Shown here: positions 5,389-13,143 of the stretch, in pieces
Layout of the letters: every line of letters starts with the position of its first letter
Position numbering within the stretch: the stretch's first letter is position 1
NCBI RefSeq assembly: GCF_022655595.1
Contig: NZ_CP093379.1
Span: 1,732,501 to 1,796,500, forward strand
Reading direction: 5' to 3'
Length of the DNA: 64,000 nt
DNA from: Ignatzschineria rhizosphaerae
GTDB taxonomy: Bacteria > Pseudomonadota > Gammaproteobacteria > Cardiobacteriales > Wohlfahrtiimonadaceae
Program-made: the position numbers and the translations under genes
Notes under the pieces: model-generated
What the model saw: the letters and a program-made list of their open reading frames with translations, nothing else
Databases searched by the model: none
Told to the model about the DNA's origin: nothing

Positions 5389-6780
5389 ATGAGCTTTATC
5401 ACTTGGCTAGTAGGCCCAATTAACGACTTTATTTGGACTTATATTCTAATCGCCTTCCTTCTAGCCTTAGGCGTCTACTTTACCATCAGAACTCGTTTTA
5501 TCCAGATTAGACTCTTTAAAGAGATGCTCAGAGTTACCATTGAAAAAAATCCTGGGAACGATGGCGTTTCAGCCTTCCAAGCATTTACCATTAGTGCCGC
5601 TAGCCGCGTAGGTACGGGAAATATTGCAGGAGTAGCACTTGCAATTGCAGTCGGTGGTCCTGGCGCTGTATTTTGGATGTGGATGATTGCACTCCTTGGA
5701 ATGTCTACTGCATTTATCGAAAGTACACTAGCTCAAGTCTATAAAGTAAAAGATGGTGAAAACTTTCGCGGTGGTCCTGCTTACTATATGAAAAAAGCAT
5801 TAGGCTGGGAAAAGCTCGGCGTTATCTTTGCGATCCTCCTAACGATTACTTTTGGCTTTATCTTTAACTCTGTACAATCTAATACAATCGCCCAATCTTT
5901 TAACTCTGTCTTTGGCTTTGACACCATCTATATTGGCGCAGCTTTAGTCGTTGCTACCGGCATTATCATCTTCGGAGGCGTTCGCCGCGTGGTAAGTTTT
6001 ACACAAGTTTGCGTACCTGTTATGGCTGTATTTTATGTGGGTATTGCCCTTTATGTTGTGGCAATCAATATCACAAAAGTCCCTGAGATGTTTCTACTCA
6101 TTGTTGAAAGCGCCTTTGGATTAAAAGAATTTGCTGGAGGCGGTTTAGGAATTGCTATTATGCAAGGTGCTCGCCGTGGGCTTTTTTCCAATGAAGCAGG
6201 AATGGGATCTGTTCCTAATGCCGCCGCTACAGCAAATGTAACGCATCCTGCAAAACAAGGCTTAGTACAGAGCTTAGGCGTATTTTTCGATACCATTATT
6301 GTCTGTTCTGCTACAGCCTTTATTATTCTCTTGTCAGGGCTTTACACAGGCGATGCCCATGGTGATGGCGTGATCTTAACCCAGCATTCTCTTGCGCTTC
6401 AAGTGGGCGAATGGGCAAAATACTTTATCTCAATTGCGATTCTCTTTTTTGCATTTAGCTCTATTATTGGAAACTATTACTATGGTGAAACCAATATTGA
6501 GTTTATTCAAAACAACTCCTCAGCACTACTTTTTTATCGCCTTTTAGTTCTAGCGATGGTGATGTTTGGGGCTATTATGAGTATGAAAACTGTTTGGAAC
6601 CTTGCCGATCTATTTATGGGATTGATGACCATTATTAACTTAGTCGTCATTGCGGTTCTCGGTAATGTTGCCTTTAAAGTGGCAGATGATTTTTACCGAC
6701 AATTGAAGATGGGGAAAGATCCTGTCTTTAAAGCTAAAAATATCAAAGGCTTAAAAAATACAGATTGTTGGGATGATTAA
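5389..6780 (+). CDS. Sodium:alanine/glycine symporter (AGCS family)
   Basis: An inner-membrane sodium-coupled amino-acid importer. The 463 residues contain about 10-11 hydrophobic segments. The family signature is visible near residues 55-95 ('FQAFTISAASRVGTGNIAGV' followed by 'AIAVGGPGAVFWMW') and again at 'GARRGLFSNEAGMGSVPNAAA', the conserved loop of AGCS transporters. Alanine or glycine is the usual substrate of the family, but the exact one cannot be read here. A GAGGAG ribosome site precedes the ATG by 6 bases. The 297-base gap upstream holds the valS terminator and an AT-rich leader. Its own terminator follows, so it looks monocistronic. Confidence 0.92.
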   Translation: MSFITWLVGPINDFIWTYILIAFLLALGVYFTIRTRFIQIRLFKEMLRVTIEKNPGNDGVSAFQAFTISAASRVGTGNIAGVALAIAVGGPGAVFWMWMIALLGMSTAFIESTLAQVYKVKDGENFRGGPAYYMKKALGWEKLGVIFAILLTITFGFIFNSVQSNTIAQSFNSVFGFDTIYIGAALVVATGIIIFGGVRRVVSFTQVCVPVMAVFYVGIALYVVAINITKVPEMFLLIVESAFGLKEFAGGGLGIAIMQGARRGLFSNEAGMGSVPNAAATANVTHPAKQGLVQSLGVFFDTIIVCSATAFIILLSGLYTGDAHGDGVILTQHSLALQVGEWAKYFISIAILFFAFSSIIGNYYYGETNIEFIQNNSSALLFYRLLVLAMVMFGAIMSMKTVWNLADLFMGLMTIINLVVIAVLGNVAFKVADDFYRQLKMGKDPVFKAKNIKGLKNTDCWDD

Positions 6781-6853: not shown

Positions 6854-6930
6854 ATACCTTTTTACCTCAAATAGCGCTAAAATGCGCTCTCATTAATGTA
6901 ACGATTGCTCTCTTATTAAAGGATCTGTCC

Positions 6931-7386
6931 ATGCAATTTAAATTACTATCTATAGAGACCTTCCCTGAAGTGACGATGTCTGATTTTCCTATGACGCTTC
7001 AAAATACCCAATCATGGCTTACTGAAATGGATATGCTCTTAGATGGTTATCAAGACTTTGTCTTGGTCTACAATGCCACAGATCTTTGCCAAACTGAACA
7101 GCAAAATAAAGAGGAAATGAAGGCTTGTTGCCAACTTGTGACGCAATGGGTCCATGAAAAAAGAGCGCTATTAAAACAGAAATGCCGGGGGATTATCTTA
7201 CCTATTCAAGAGGGTACCAATGATCTTACGATCATCGAAGTCTATCGTGAAGAGATTGAGTCTTATTATAAAATTCCTACAGAAGTTCTCTATCACCCTC
7301 AAGATTTACCATTACTAGCACATGCCTTGATTCATGATTGTTGGGATGCGCATTCGATGCATCTTCATAAAGTGCCGGCATTATAA
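6931..7386 (+). CDS. Unrecognised protein, tandem paralogue 1 of 3
   Basis: 151 residues, with no family I can name. It shares with the next two genes a start of the form M-x-F-x-(I/L)-L-S-(I/L), then 'WLTEMD' near residue 30, a hydrophobic strand 'DFVLVY', and the block 'KCRGIILP' near residue 90, then 'IPTEVLYHPQDL'. No signal peptide or membrane segment is seen, so it is probably cytosolic. The alternating helix/strand pattern with a central 'FVLxY' strand is loosely like small SpoIIAA/STAS-type folds, but that is only an impression. AAAGGA lies 9 bases before the ATG. It has its own terminator, unlike copies 2 and 3, which sit together. It ends in an extra ~12 residues (MHLHKVPAL) also seen in copy 2. 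Confidence 0.8.
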   Translation: MQFKLLSIETFPEVTMSDFPMTLQNTQSWLTEMDMLLDGYQDFVLVYNATDLCQTEQQNKEEMKACCQLVTQWVHEKRALLKQKCRGIILPIQEGTNDLTIIEVYREEIESYYKIPTEVLYHPQDLPLLAHALIHDCWDAHSMHLHKVPAL

Positions 7387-7485
7387 AGATCAAAAAAGTG
7401 TGTGAAAATTCAAAAATAAAAGCCTTGATTTTTCATAAAATAGCGCTTTTATGGCAACTTTAAATAATGATTTAAATTAAATATT

Positions 7486-7512
7486 GGGATGAAGCAATCA
7501 TCCCTTTTTTTT
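7486..7512 (+). terminator. Rho-independent terminator after paralogue 1
   Basis: GGGATGA (7486-7492) pairs with TCATCCC (7498-7504) over an AGCAA loop and is followed by eight T. It separates paralogue 1 from paralogues 2 and 3. Confidence 0.85.
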
Positions 7513-7588
7513 AAGAAAAAGCTGTTTGATAACAAAACTCAAATGAGATAGATTGACAAATAACATCACATTTAAAGAGTTTTTATCT

Positions 7589-8041
7589 ATGCCATTCAAG
7601 CTACTGTCTCTTCAAAATTACCCAGAAGTCACCATCTCTAAATTTCCAATTACGCTGCCTGAAATGAATTTATGGCTCACAGAGATGAATGAGCTATTAG
7701 CACAATATCAAGACTTTGTCTTGATCTACCCGACCTTTGATCCTCTATATTTTGATCAAGCAGAACCTCAATCGCTCAAAGCTGCTCGTAAAATGGCTTT
7801 AGCTTGGTTTCAAGAAAATCGAGCATTATTAAAAATAAAATGCCGAGGCATTATCTTACCCATAAAAGAAGATGATAGTGATCTTCCTATTATCGAGATT
7901 CATCGTGACGAATTAGAGTCTTTCTACCGCATTCCCACAGAAATTCTCTATCATCCTAAAGATCTCACAACCCTCTCTAGCGCCCTTCTTTATGATTTTT
8001 GGGATATGCCTACAGCTGGCATCCATAAAATCTCTTCCTAA
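7589..8041 (+). CDS. Unrecognised protein, tandem paralogue 2 of 3
   Basis: 150 residues from the ATG at 7589. An in-frame TTG at 7553 would add 12 residues, but the ATG start (MPFKLLSLQ) aligns exactly with the starts of its two paralogues. It carries the same landmarks: 'WLTEMNELL', 'DFVLIYPTFDP', 'KCRGIILP' and 'RIPTEILYHP'. The 'YPTFDP' segment is shared with copy 3 but not copy 1. Function is unknown. It is separated from copy 3 by 36 bases, so the two are probably co-transcribed. Likely a soluble cytosolic protein. Confidence 0.8.
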   Translation: MPFKLLSLQNYPEVTISKFPITLPEMNLWLTEMNELLAQYQDFVLIYPTFDPLYFDQAEPQSLKAARKMALAWFQENRALLKIKCRGIILPIKEDDSDLPIIEIHRDELESFYRIPTEILYHPKDLTTLSSALLYDFWDMPTAGIHKISS

Positions 8042-8077
8042 CTTATAAAATCAGACTATTTATTAAAGGATTCTCCT

Positions 8078-8488
8078 ATGAACTTCCAAATCCTCTCTAT
8101 TGAGAACTTCCCACAAGTTAATATTACCAACTTTCCTAATAGCGTTGAAACAACAGATCAATGGTTAAAAGAGATGGAATATCTTTTTCATCACCATGAA
8201 AATTTTGTGCTCTTTTACCCCACCTTTGACCCTGAGGCCTTTGCCAATATCGACCCAGAAGTCTCGCAAGCTGCCCGCAAACAGATTATTTTATGGCTCA
8301 AGAAAAATCGCGATCTCTTTAAAGAAAAATGCAAAGGCATCATTCTCCCCACACAAGCCGATCAGAGCGATTTAGAGATCATCAAAGCCCAAGTATCCCA
8401 AGTAGAAACTGTCTACCGAGTGCCGGCTAGAGTCCTCTTAAATGAAGCGGATAAAACAAGCTTAATCCAAGAACTAATGGCCGCTTAA
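8078..8488 (+). CDS. Unrecognised protein, tandem paralogue 3 of 3
   Basis: 136 residues, the shortest of the trio. It lacks the C-terminal tail (the 'DFWDMPTAGIHKISS' end of copy 2). It keeps 'WLKEMEYLF', 'NFVLFYPTFDP', 'KCKGIILP' and 'RVPARVLLNEAD'. The ribosome site (TTAAAGGATTC before the ATG) closely resembles that of copy 1, as expected if the unit was duplicated with its leader. It is the most diverged copy. Function unknown. A repeat element and a two-way terminator follow, between it and the converging guaA. Confidence 0.8.
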   Translation: MNFQILSIENFPQVNITNFPNSVETTDQWLKEMEYLFHHHENFVLFYPTFDPEAFANIDPEVSQAARKQIILWLKKNRDLFKEKCKGIILPTQADQSDLEIIKAQVSQVETVYRVPARVLLNEADKTSLIQELMAA

Positions 8489-8795: not shown

Positions 8796-10325
8796 TTACT
8801 CCCATTCTACAGTTGCAGGGGGTTTACTCGTAATGTCGTAAACCACGCGATTAATATGTTTCACTTCATTGACCATTCTTACAGAAACTTTCTGTAAAAT
8901 ATCCCATGGAATACGCGCAAAATCAGCTGTCATTCCATCAATTGAAGTAATGGCTCTAATGGCGATAGTGTAATCATAGGTACGGGAATCCCCCATCACA
9001 CCAACGCTTCTCAAGCCAGTTAATACCGTAAAGTATTGCCAGATGTCCCCTTCTAAGCCGGCAATCTTAATCTCTTCTCTTAAGATAGCATCACTTTCAC
9101 GAACAATCTCTAATTTTTCTTCGGTGATATCACCAAGCACACGAATCCCAAGACCAGGTCCTGGAAATGGTTGTCGCCATACTAAATCATGCGGCATTCC
9201 AAGCTCAATTCCAAGGGCCCGCACCTCATCTTTAAAGAGCGTCTTAAGTGGCTCAATAAGCTTAAACTTCATATCTTCCGGCAAGCCACCGACATTATGA
9301 TGGGATTTAATTGTTTCTGCCGTATCTGTGCCGCTTTCAATAATATCGGTATAGAGCGTTCCTTGCGCAAGGAAATCAATATCTTGAAGTTTTTTCGCTT
9401 CATCATCAAAAAGATAGATAAACTCATTACCGATAATTTTACGTTTTTGCTCAGGGTCACTTACCCCTTTAAGCTTTTCTAAGAAGCGATCCTTTGCATT
9501 GACCCGAATAATATTGAGCCCAAATTTACCGGCAAGACTCTCCATTACCTGATCCCCTTCCCCTTTACGAAGTAAGCCGTGATCCACAAAAACACAGGTT
9601 AACTGATCGCCAATGGCTTTTTGCAACAAAACACCCACAACACTGGAATCAACGCCGCCAGAAAGGGCTAAAAGGACCTTTTTATCTCCCACAAGATCAC
9701 GAATTTTTTGGATCTCTTGCTGAATAAAGGTATCCATATGCCAACTATCAGAGCAGCCGCAAATTTCATAAGCAAAGTTCTTTAGAAGGTCTAAACCATA
9801 CTCTGAATGTTTGACTTCTGGATGGAATTGAACACCATAAAAATTTCGCTCCACGCATTCCATCGCCGCAATCGGACAATCACTACTATAAGCTGTTACT
9901 TCAAAACCCTGAGGAACTTTTGTCACTAAATCCCCATGGCTCATCCAAACAGATTGCTTTTCTGGTAATTTTGCGAACATCGTCGTCTTTTTAGGGTCGA
10001 TATGCAAAAATGCTAATCCATATTCACGATTCGCCGCTTTCTCAACTTTACCGCCAAGTATATGCGTCATCAACTGCATTCCATAGCAGATTCCTAATAC
10101 CGGAATACCAAGATTAAAAATCTCAGGATCAATAGAAAATGCATTCTCTGCATAAACACTATTTGGGCCACCCGATAAAATAATGCCAGATGGCTTCAAC
10201 GCAGCTAACTCTTTTGCCGAGATTTTATGAGAAATCAATTCTGAAAAGACCCCGATTTCACGAATTCTTCGTGTGATTAATTGGTTATATTGGCTGCCGT
10301 AATCTAATACGATGATCTTTTCCAT
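8796..10325 (-). CDS. guaA: GMP synthase (glutamine-hydrolysing)
   Basis: Converts XMP to GMP using glutamine and ATP in de novo purine synthesis. It has 509 residues from the ATG; the TTG one codon earlier is less likely, since AAGGAG lies 8 bases before the ATG. The N-terminal class I amidotransferase has the catalytic triad visible: Cys in 'GICYGMQ' (about 80), His and Glu in 'QFHPEVKH' (about 168 and 170). The ATP-pyrophosphatase domain has the P-loop SGGVDS at about 222-227. The C-terminal dimerisation domain ends in the conserved '[10 protein letters not shown]'. guaB is not adjacent here. Confidence 0.98.
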
Positions 10326-10449
10326 CAAATGTGCTCCTTAAAGCATGGTTTACAAACACTTAACGTATTATATAAAATTCTCCCCAAAATACGATCTTTC
10401 TAAAGAAATTTTATAAAGAAGGCGCAATCTCCCTTACTTTATAAATTTT

Positions 10450-11626: not shown

Positions 11627-12462
11627 TGTTTACACTTCAGTGTTAAAATAATTTTCTAAAACTTCATAAGGCGTTAAACCATTAATACCCTTATGAGGTT
11701 TTACTGTGTTGTAATAGTTCAAAAATCGTTTTAGCTTCTTTTTCCGATCATCTGAACTGATAAACTCCTCCTGATTATGCCACATTTCCATGAGTGTTCG
11801 AATGACTCTTTCTGCTTTTCCATTCGTTTGAGGGCAAGCTGGCTTTGTAAACTTTTGATTAATCTTATGTGTTAGACACATTTCGACAAAGGCATGTTCT
11901 GATGTACCTTTATACTCACGACCATTATCCGAATAGGTGCATTCTACAGTATAGGGACACTGTTCTAACAGATCCCATCGAAGAAATTCAGCAGCACTAA
12001 ACTGTGATTTATCAGGATAAATACCGGCATAAAGTTCTCTTGAAAAATCATCAATTCCTACAAATAAATACTCTCTAGTGCGATTTTTAAGATCTCCTTT
12101 TAAAAGAGGGAGCCGTTTAGTATCCACATGGACCATCTCGCCAGGATAGTTTTTGTTATAACGTTTAGCCCTCTTTTTAAGTTTCTCTTCAATAGATTTT
12201 TCAATCTTTGCAAGACGTTTAATGCCATACTTAATTGTTCTATAACGTTCATTTTTACTAGCTAATGGCACAAACAAGTTCAATCTACCTTGTTTTAGTA
12301 CTTTATAGATCGTAGGTCTGCTTACCATAAAACGCTCAGCTAGATAGGTTACGGTAAATTTTTCTTGATGATGTAATCGCCAAATCTCTTCTCGATGAAA
12401 CGGCGTTAATTTTGTTTTTCGATGGATATTCATAACAGTATTTTCTCCTAATACTGTAAACA
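11627..12462 (-). mobile_element. IS481-type insertion sequence, about 836 bp
   Basis: The ends read TGTTTACACTTCAG on the low side and TGTTTACAGTATTAG (reverse strand) on the high side: imperfect inverted repeats beginning TGT, as is usual for IS481-like elements. The transposase fills nearly the whole element and its stop codon lies inside the low-side repeat. I see no clear target-site duplication, which could mean an old insertion or a deletion next to it. The element separates a broken GNAT gene from a membrane-anchored protein gene. Confidence 0.8.
11630..12433 (-). CDS. IS481-family transposase (DDE, rve integrase core)
   Basis: 267 residues from the ATG; an in-frame TTG ten codons earlier lies inside the terminal repeat. 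The N-terminal helix-turn-helix (about 10-50, 'VTYLAERFMVSRPTIYKVLK') is followed by a catalytic core with the first Asp in 'MVHVDTKRLP', the second in 'TYSDNGREYKG' and the Glu in 'QTNGKAERVIRTL'. The end 'LNYYNTVKPHKGINGLTPYE' is typical of this family. All catalytic residues appear present and the frame is intact, so the element may still be active. A GGAG site lies 11 bases before the ATG. Confidence 0.92.
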   Translation of the reverse strand: MNIHRKTKLTPFHREEIWRLHHQEKFTVTYLAERFMVSRPTIYKVLKQGRLNLFVPLASKNERYRTIKYGIKRLAKIEKSIEEKLKKRAKRYNKNYPGEMVHVDTKRLPLLKGDLKNRTREYLFVGIDDFSRELYAGIYPDKSQFSAAEFLRWDLLEQCPYTVECTYSDNGREYKGTSEHAFVEMCLTHKINQKFTKPACPQTNGKAERVIRTLMEMWHNQEEFISSDDRKKKLKRFLNYYNTVKPHKGINGLTPYEVLENYFNTEV

Positions 12463-13143
12463 ACGCGATAAAATCCTACAGTTAATTGATCGGTCTTTAT
12501 TGTCATCAATTAGTCCCTTTTGTTTTCTCTTCGATTCTTGAAATGCCGCCCATTCCGGATCATGCGTATAATCTCTAAAGCGACATCTATTCTCCATCTG
12601 CGCATGACTTACTTTTGCCATTTGCTCTGTGATATAAGCCTCTATCTCTGCTTTTGTATAAGGGTTTTTAGTACAAAAATCCTCACCTGCCAACGTTGTT
12701 CTACACGTTTCACCACGCCATGTACTAAATGTCCCATTACGCATCGAATCACTCACATACCAATTATTTAAAAGATCTCTACGAGCGCAGATCGCAAGAC
12801 CTGCAATAGCATTGTCTTCATAATCAATATAAAAAAGAAAATGCTGATCTGGTGTTATCTCCACCTTTTTAACTTCAATATTTTCAGTAACTGGGTAATA
12901 ATCTTCTCCAAGCCGTGATCGCTCTTTAGAAACATACTCTAAAACACTCAATTCTGGCGTTGACTGATAACCATAAGTATCGCCTAAACTCATCAGTCTC
13001 ACATAGAGCGATTCATGAAATATTGTCCCTAAAAGTATCAAAAATACTATGATTCCCCACAAAAATCGCTTGATTCTTTTTGGAGGTTGTTTTCCTGAAC
13101 ATGCTTTTTCTGATCGTTTTAAATTAGACTCTAACTGACTCAT
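12448..13143 (-). CDS. Membrane-anchored protein of unknown function, 3' end altered by the IS
   Basis: 231 residues, not recognised. The N-terminal ~25 residues are basic, then one hydrophobic segment (about 28-43, 'FLWGIIVFLILLGTIF') probably anchors it in the inner membrane with the rest outside. The outer part has several cysteines ('CARRD', 'GETCRTTLAGEDFC', 'ENRCRFRDY') that could form disulphides. The last few codons (…CLQY) and the stop come from the insertion-sequence end, so the original C-terminus may have been lost. The distance to the transporter upstream is 114 bases. AGGAA precedes the ATG. Confidence 0.65.
   Translation of the reverse strand: MSQLESNLKRSEKACSGKQPPKRIKRFLWGIIVFLILLGTIFHESLYVRLMSLGDTYGYQSTPELSVLEYVSKERSRLGEDYYPVTENIEVKKVEITPDQHFLFYIDYEDNAIAGLAICARRDLLNNWYVSDSMRNGTFSTWRGETCRTTLAGEDFCTKNPYTKAEIEAYITEQMAKVSHAQMENRCRFRDYTHDPEWAAFQESKRKQKGLIDDNKDRSINCRILSRCLQY

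Follow-up and report, generated by a model that had tools for sequence, protein, structure and literature searches.

Three tandem genes of Ignatzschineria rhizosphaerae are paralogues of a sparse Pseudomonadota family that, by sequence, includes PA3720 and has a predicted STAS-type fold

Three adjacent genes in a 64,000-nt stretch of the Ignatzschineria rhizosphaerae genome (3.07 Mb, single contig), which we analysed as a whole and call the window, are paralogues related by common descent and tandem duplication. Sequence comparison places this trio in a sparse, so far undefined family of Pseudomonadota proteins that includes PA3720 of Pseudomonas aeruginosa, and structure models predict a SpoIIAA/STAS-type alpha/beta fold for its proteins. 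Relatives of the trio adjoin AraC regulators and TonB siderophore receptors far more often than control loci do, and several of them also adjoin export pumps.

The trio is flanked by a sodium:alanine symporter gene (5389-6780) and by guaA on the minus strand (8796-10328); the features of the locus are collected in Table 1. All three frames are intact and align over their full length, in agreement with the initial annotation, which had read them as one family from features that included three sequence blocks. Each block is found in every copy: WLxEM (WLTEM in copies 1 and 2, WLKEM in copy 3), FVLxY (FVLVY, FVLIY and FVLFY in copies 1, 2 and 3, respectively) and KC(R/K)GIILP (KCRGIILP in copies 1 and 2, KCKGIILP in copy 3). 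The mechanical ORF of copy 2 begins upstream of its ATG, at a TTG at 7553. The terminator attributed to copy 1 was recovered, and the distance of 36 nt between copies 2 and 3 was confirmed by measurement (8042-8077); the terminator scan found none inside this gap. The AAAGGA leader described as common to the trio proved to be shared by copies 1 and 3, whereas copy 2 carries AAAGAG at 7574-7579. As a regulatory element this leader was rejected, being an ordinary ribosome-binding site found in just two of the three copies. The promoter consensus scan returned 6 sites against 6.0 expected from shuffles, that is, no excess. By eye, positions 7462-7480 resemble a putative Fur box. Close downstream of the trio lies a transposase-like frame (window positions 11630-12463, integrase core recognised by eye), which may bear on gene traffic in this region.

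Table 1. Positions of genes and sequence elements at the trio locus, in window coordinates
Feature	Position	Strand	Length	Description
Copy 1	6931-7386	+	151 aa	PA3720-like protein with a predicted STAS fold and a C-terminal tail
Copy 2	7589-8041	+	150 aa from ATG	Closest paralogue of copy 1; model mcf8172e94369
Copy 3	8078-8488	+	136 aa	Form shared with Wohlfahrtiimonas; model mad33483080c4
Intrinsic terminator of copy 1	7486-7512	+		7-pair stem (7486-7504) followed by 8 T
Possible sigma-70 promoter of the copy 2-copy 3 unit	7526-7554	+		TTGATA-17-TAGATT, 9/12; suggestion only
Ribosome-binding leader TTATTAAAGGA of copy 1	6913-6923	+		Read from sequence; 7 nt 5' of ATG
Same leader TTATTAAAGGA at copy 3	8060-8070	+		Read from sequence; 7 nt 5' of ATG

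Over whole-length alignments, copies 1 and 2 are 52% identical, copies 2 and 3 are 42% identical, and copies 1 and 3 are 36% identical. Copy 2 used as a query against its own genome matched copies 1 and 3 (E 4.7e-50 and 3.6e-34, respectively), and no fourth copy was found there by this search; a match at position 1405697 (G000, E 0.22) falls in a long unrelated frame and was taken as chance. Copies 1 and 2 end in a tail of 14-15 residues (D-x-W-D...HK), and both copy 3 and the Wohlfahrtiimonas proteins are without it.

To place the trio among its relatives, copy 2 was searched against 57 genomes, its own included, with a match cut-off of E 0.01. Five genomes matched, and one of these matches (G023, E 0.0045) lies inside a long unrelated frame and was treated as chance. 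The set held nine Ignatzschineria genomes, own included: three copies each were found in the own genome and in its sister species, Ca. I. merdigallinarum (G008), and the copy 2 search revealed no copy in the seven others. Outside the genus, Wohlfahrtiimonas populi and W. larvae each carry a single gene resembling copy 3, and seven further genomes of the same family (Wohlfahrtiimonadaceae level) gave no copy.

In Ca. I. merdigallinarum the trio occupies the same site, between the symporter gene and guaA, and in a tree of 47 rows each copy branches with its counterpart from that species. Copies 1 and 2 are sisters in this tree (support 100/98), while copy 3 groups with the Wohlfahrtiimonas gene (92/78). 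Because the two Ignatzschineria species share the trio copy by copy and at the same site, the duplications predate their split and are not very recent. Compared copy by copy, the orthologues of the two species are 67-71% identical with dN of 0.22-0.24, and dS is 1.4 or beyond calculation, meaning that synonymous sites are at or near saturation; for the adjacent symporter dN is 0.05. The trio proteins look to be under purifying selection, yet they evolve faster than this neighbour. The initial annotation had proposed recent family growth in one place. Growth in one place is evident from three paralogues lying side by side, but 'recent' is at odds with a trio common to Ca. I. merdigallinarum, with dS near saturation and with the grouping of copy 3 with Wohlfahrtiimonas.

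The interval between symporter and guaA itself seems to be a place of gene turnover, because in a trio-free congener (G001) it is occupied by a different frame of 422 aa (L098 3378-4646), which has no Pfam match. In G002, a 943-aa autotransporter-like frame lies beside the symporter, and no guaA frame is listed adjacent to it.

Scans of the window copies and their relatives against Pfam, NCBIfam, PHROG and PADLOC gave chance-level matches only; among 18 members, a single one matched an NCBIfam model derived from metalloproteases (E 0.00025). The family was unrecognised in the initial annotation and is so in these four collections, none of which has a family covering the trio. A sequence search of the PDB gave a best E of 0.3, and the match was rejected. 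A scan of genome contigs with the three window copies alone detected no relative, while one with eight rows detected three loci. With a profile of eight close proteins, distant gammaproteobacterial frames were found, with 4 of 369 genomes matching, own included; its match in G161, in a long unrelated frame, was taken as chance. When two distant members were added, matches appeared in 16 of 398 Pseudomonadota genomes, again including the own one, and one of them (G559), also in a long unrelated frame, was judged chance. Relatives were more numerous in plasmid records: tblastn with family members found them in 134 and in 97 of 72,556 records in separate runs, and copy 3 as a query gave 34 plasmid records at E <=1. 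Phage records contributed one relative, in the unverified entry OQ572403.1. Near-constant positions of the 47-row alignment (copy 3 numbering) are Trp73 (0.96), Pro12 (0.94), Phe43 (0.91), Lys75 (0.87) and, at 0.85 each, Val14, Val44 and Pro116.

The relative in OQ572403.1 proved by its sequence to be PA3720 itself, lying in the part of the P. aeruginosa genome that carries PA3720 and armR. Published primer sites for PA3720 are present in its frame, and those for armR in the next one (primer sequences as given in PMC6173428 and PMC3290565). This next frame has 53 aa, the last 25 of which match the ArmR peptide of PDB 3ech, and the relative is flanked by a divergent TetR-family gene upstream and by an MFS gene. 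The last 9.5 kb of the record (L063; OQ572403.1, 86333-95804; 'UNVERIFIED: Pseudomonas phage Y1, complete genome') resemble P. aeruginosa chromosome and hold PA3720, armR, the TetR gene, the MFS gene and a metalloprotease frame, which we take to be LasB. The record is probably contaminated or misassembled.

As queries against the frames of the window, PA3720 and the Proteus protein both retrieve copies 1, 2 and 3 (E 1.6e-12 to 1.3e-21). A whole-length profile match and mutual BLAST matches with PA3720 place the trio in a PA3720-like family, and the 47-row tree contains a branch common to both, in which the Ignatzschineria-Wohlfahrtiimonas clade (100/98) joins PA3720 and the Proteus mirabilis protein as sister (98/93). 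Judged by these comparisons, PA3720 is the trio's nearest relative at a studied locus. It shows 30% identity to copy 2 over 142 columns, belongs to the same length class and has the WLxE, FxLVYP and C-R/K-G blocks. It differs in its setting, being located upstream of armR under the TetR-type repressor NalC, whereas the trio is without such neighbours.

In PMC3290565 and PMC6173428, PA3720 is described as opening the PA3720-armR operon, which NalC represses and pentachlorophenol induces, and its function is given as unknown. Its place at the head of this antirepressor operon has been known since 2004, and the 2018 paper still assigns it neither a known function nor a characterised homologue (PMC6173428). 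According to PMC3290565, deletion of PA3720 does not abolish the induction of mexAB-oprM by pentachlorophenol, and a table in PMC12132448 has PA3720 as a hypothetical protein. Pentachlorophenol and paromomycin are reported in PMC3290565 and PMC6173428 to induce PA3720, and it is by analogy with this one relative, not through the trio, that the stress role guessed at in the initial annotation may find some footing. Among the matches listed, drawn mostly from literature outside subscription journals, no paper links PA3720 to STAS/SpoIIAA, siderophore, TonB or AraC.

AlphaFold2 models of copies 2 and 3 were built from shallow eight-row alignments and reached a mean pLDDT of 79.9 and 79.0, respectively. 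The order of strands and helices is near-identical in the two models, each with a low-confidence first strand (residues 7-10 of copy 2 and 1-11 of copy 3). Structural alignment returned 2q3l as the best entry for both: Z 11.4, rmsd 2.4 and 112 aligned residues for copy 2 (next entry Z 7.4), and Z 9.4, rmsd 2.8 and 112 aligned residues for copy 3 (next entry Z 6.1), a lead of 3 to 4 Z units. With Foldseek by comparison nothing reached E <=0.001, and 2q3l stood at rank 15 (E 0.16). For the copy 2 model, STAS proteins, SiaC and SpoIIAA follow at Z 5.5-6.9 (1h4y, 1vc1, 7e6g and others), mixed with unrelated alpha/beta folds; the copy 3 model aligns with 4xs5 at Z 6.1. All of these are middling values that a common arrangement could explain. 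The loose STAS/SpoIIAA-type resemblance suspected in the initial annotation accords with these predicted models, since the SpoIIAA-like 2q3l tops the matches of both.

The entry 2q3l, titled as DUF3478 with a SpoIIAA-like fold, is presumably a member of PF11964. The trio resembles PF11964 in predicted fold, by the structural comparisons above, and differs in sequence, with about 10% identity and no Pfam match: the PF11964 profile gave nothing over its curated cut-off in the window copies, in their relatives or in the rest of the own genome. The likeness of fold is not backed by sequence, because the profile-profile comparison of 30 PF11964 members with the 47 family rows yields 0.6% probability. 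The STAS Pfam model PF01740 gave no match either. STAS-only anti-anti-sigma factors and SiaC may share the order of strands and helices with the predicted trio models. In anti-anti-sigma factors, the helix that follows the third strand carries a phosphorylatable Ser/Thr at its N-terminal end. Unlike these factors with their conserved phospho-serine, the trio's family has no conserved Ser/Thr at this site, either in the 47-row alignment or in alignment A4.

Members from Ignatzschineria and Wohlfahrtiimonas neighbour valS, the sodium:alanine symporter gene, guaA, a DUF805 gene, or YceI and short-chain dehydrogenase genes, and no siderophore, receptor, pump or regulator gene adjoins the trio or the Wohlfahrtiimonas copies. 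We also inspected the surroundings of relatives in plasmid and phage records, in all 21 stretches, 18 of them annotated and three read from frames (Proteus, B. stagnalis and P. aeruginosa). By our own tally of this uncontrolled set, a TonB receptor or an export pump is located near the family gene in 17 of 21 stretches: Sphingomonas, two Sphingobium, two Pantoea, K. variicola, Agrobacterium, Shinella, Serratia symbiotica and Acinetobacter; four pump modules from K. pneumoniae (two), Citrobacter and Enterobacter; and a K. pneumoniae stretch with a LysE-type gene, B. stagnalis and P. aeruginosa. Some modules in the set are near-identical (the pair L048/L049 and the group L051/L052/L054). An ABC pair lies beside the member in Pantoea At-9b and Serratia symbiotica, an RND operon accompanies it in Acinetobacter and an MFS gene in K. 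variicola; in B. stagnalis the neighbouring pump genes form an operon assigned by eye to the FUSC-HlyD-outer membrane factor type. Outside the 17 are Proteus, with an adjoining ThrE-type exporter gene, Cereibacter and B. glumae, each with an AraC-type regulator, and C. braakii, where no TonB receptor, pump or AraC-type regulator was seen near the member. The AraC gene and the member are separated in Cereibacter and Shinella by the gene for another small protein (132 aa, no Pfam match; L057 4573-4971, L062 4572-4970).

A controlled comparison used 18 members in whole genomes, 16 from the extended profile search and two from other searches. For each member, 17-18 kb of surrounding sequence (9.4 kb in one case) was screened with 26 query proteins from the record loci; as controls we used 18 stretches from these genomes, of which 14 were shifted by 100 kb. 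A TonB receptor or AraC gene was found within 2 kb at 12/18 loci and at 1/18 controls (Fisher p 0.0003, a generous value, as the queries were themselves encoded next to plasmid members of the family and the loci are in part congeneric). Taken separately, TonB receptors were found within 2 kb at six loci and no controls, and AraC genes at eight loci and one control, in 8/18 loci within 1 kb; Pfam confirms AraC in L082, L083, L084 and L085 and the TonB receptor of L093. Pump genes showed no clear excess at this distance (4/18 vs 2/18). At L080 and L090, none of the searched classes was represented among the neighbours.

Combining paralogy, predicted fold and context, we tentatively read the family protein as a cytosolic or soluble protein of STAS-type fold that assists or senses the transport of siderophores and xenobiotics. 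This is the simplest reading because a protein of this predicted fold recurs with siderophore uptake, less firmly with efflux, and with ligand-binding regulators. For the trio itself, a transport role would be carried over from relatives at about 30% identity, and by homology only, because the Ignatzschineria and Wohlfahrtiimonas copies are without transport neighbours. The STAS-type surface or pocket would most likely bind an aromatic or lipophilic transport substrate (siderophore, phenol) or else another protein as partner (regulator, transporter), and this binding would tune uptake or export. As two putative expression units (copy 1; copies 2 and 3), the Ignatzschineria genes could supply differently tuned versions, copies 1 and 2 being further set apart by their conserved tail. 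Once PA3720 is grouped with a family found beside siderophore receptors and efflux pumps, for which a fold is predicted, testable ideas on its ligand and partner follow; the trio, as three naturally diverged copies in one cell, is useful for comparing conserved surfaces. A wider generalisation is possible though doubtful: the unnamed, widespread stand-alone family of predicted STAS fold may serve siderophore uptake and xenobiotic export in Pseudomonadota as a common module that senses or carries ligands, set beside AraC, TetR and ECF/FecR regulators and several pump superfamilies, with PA3720 as its P. aeruginosa version and the trio as a lineage where it multiplied, freed from a linked transporter.

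MlaB, the STAS partner of an ABC importer, is the precedent for a different reading, in which the protein docks on a transporter like a subunit and controls its assembly or activity. The predicted fold would suit such a partner, and in several loci a member overlaps or directly adjoins a pump gene (ABC, RND, MFS, FUSC-HlyD); however, the neighbouring transporters span many unrelated superfamilies and several loci (e.g. L083, L084 and L089) have an AraC gene only, which makes docking unlikely. We give still less credence to partner switching of the SpoIIAA/RsbV type, controlling a sigma factor or the adjacent AraC/TetR regulator. Its fold class may be the same, a regulator gene (AraC) is the commonest neighbour, and ECF sigma/FecR pairs occur near L088, L094 and L095, but the alignments show no serine conserved close to where the second long helix begins, and no kinase-type anti-sigma gene is named beside any member in the annotated stretches. 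That the protein is a small enzyme with a siderophore or phenol as its substrate is very improbable: conserved Trp, Lys, Cys and Pro positions might suggest activity, but the near-constant residues form no obvious catalytic set and the Pfam/NCBIfam scans gave no enzyme-family match. Least credible of all is an immunity, defence or toxin-antitoxin family growing by tandem duplication, as the initial annotation had guessed for immunity or toxin resistance, since its tandem multiplication and protein change faster than the neighbour's are set against the lack of any match in PADLOC or PHROG, the absence of toxin and mobile genes from the trio, and a lone phage-record relative in a stretch resembling bacterial chromosome.

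The plasmid members include some irregular entries. Two of about 130 aa (L044 4995-5405 and L049 4977-5360) are annotated 'GntR family transcriptional regulator', probably a carried-over misannotation. On plasmid pVIR1078 of K. pneumoniae, the member that closes an MFS efflux operon (L043 5995-6437) is split in two frames and is a probable broken gene; the same two-piece match is also listed for several other Klebsiella plasmids.
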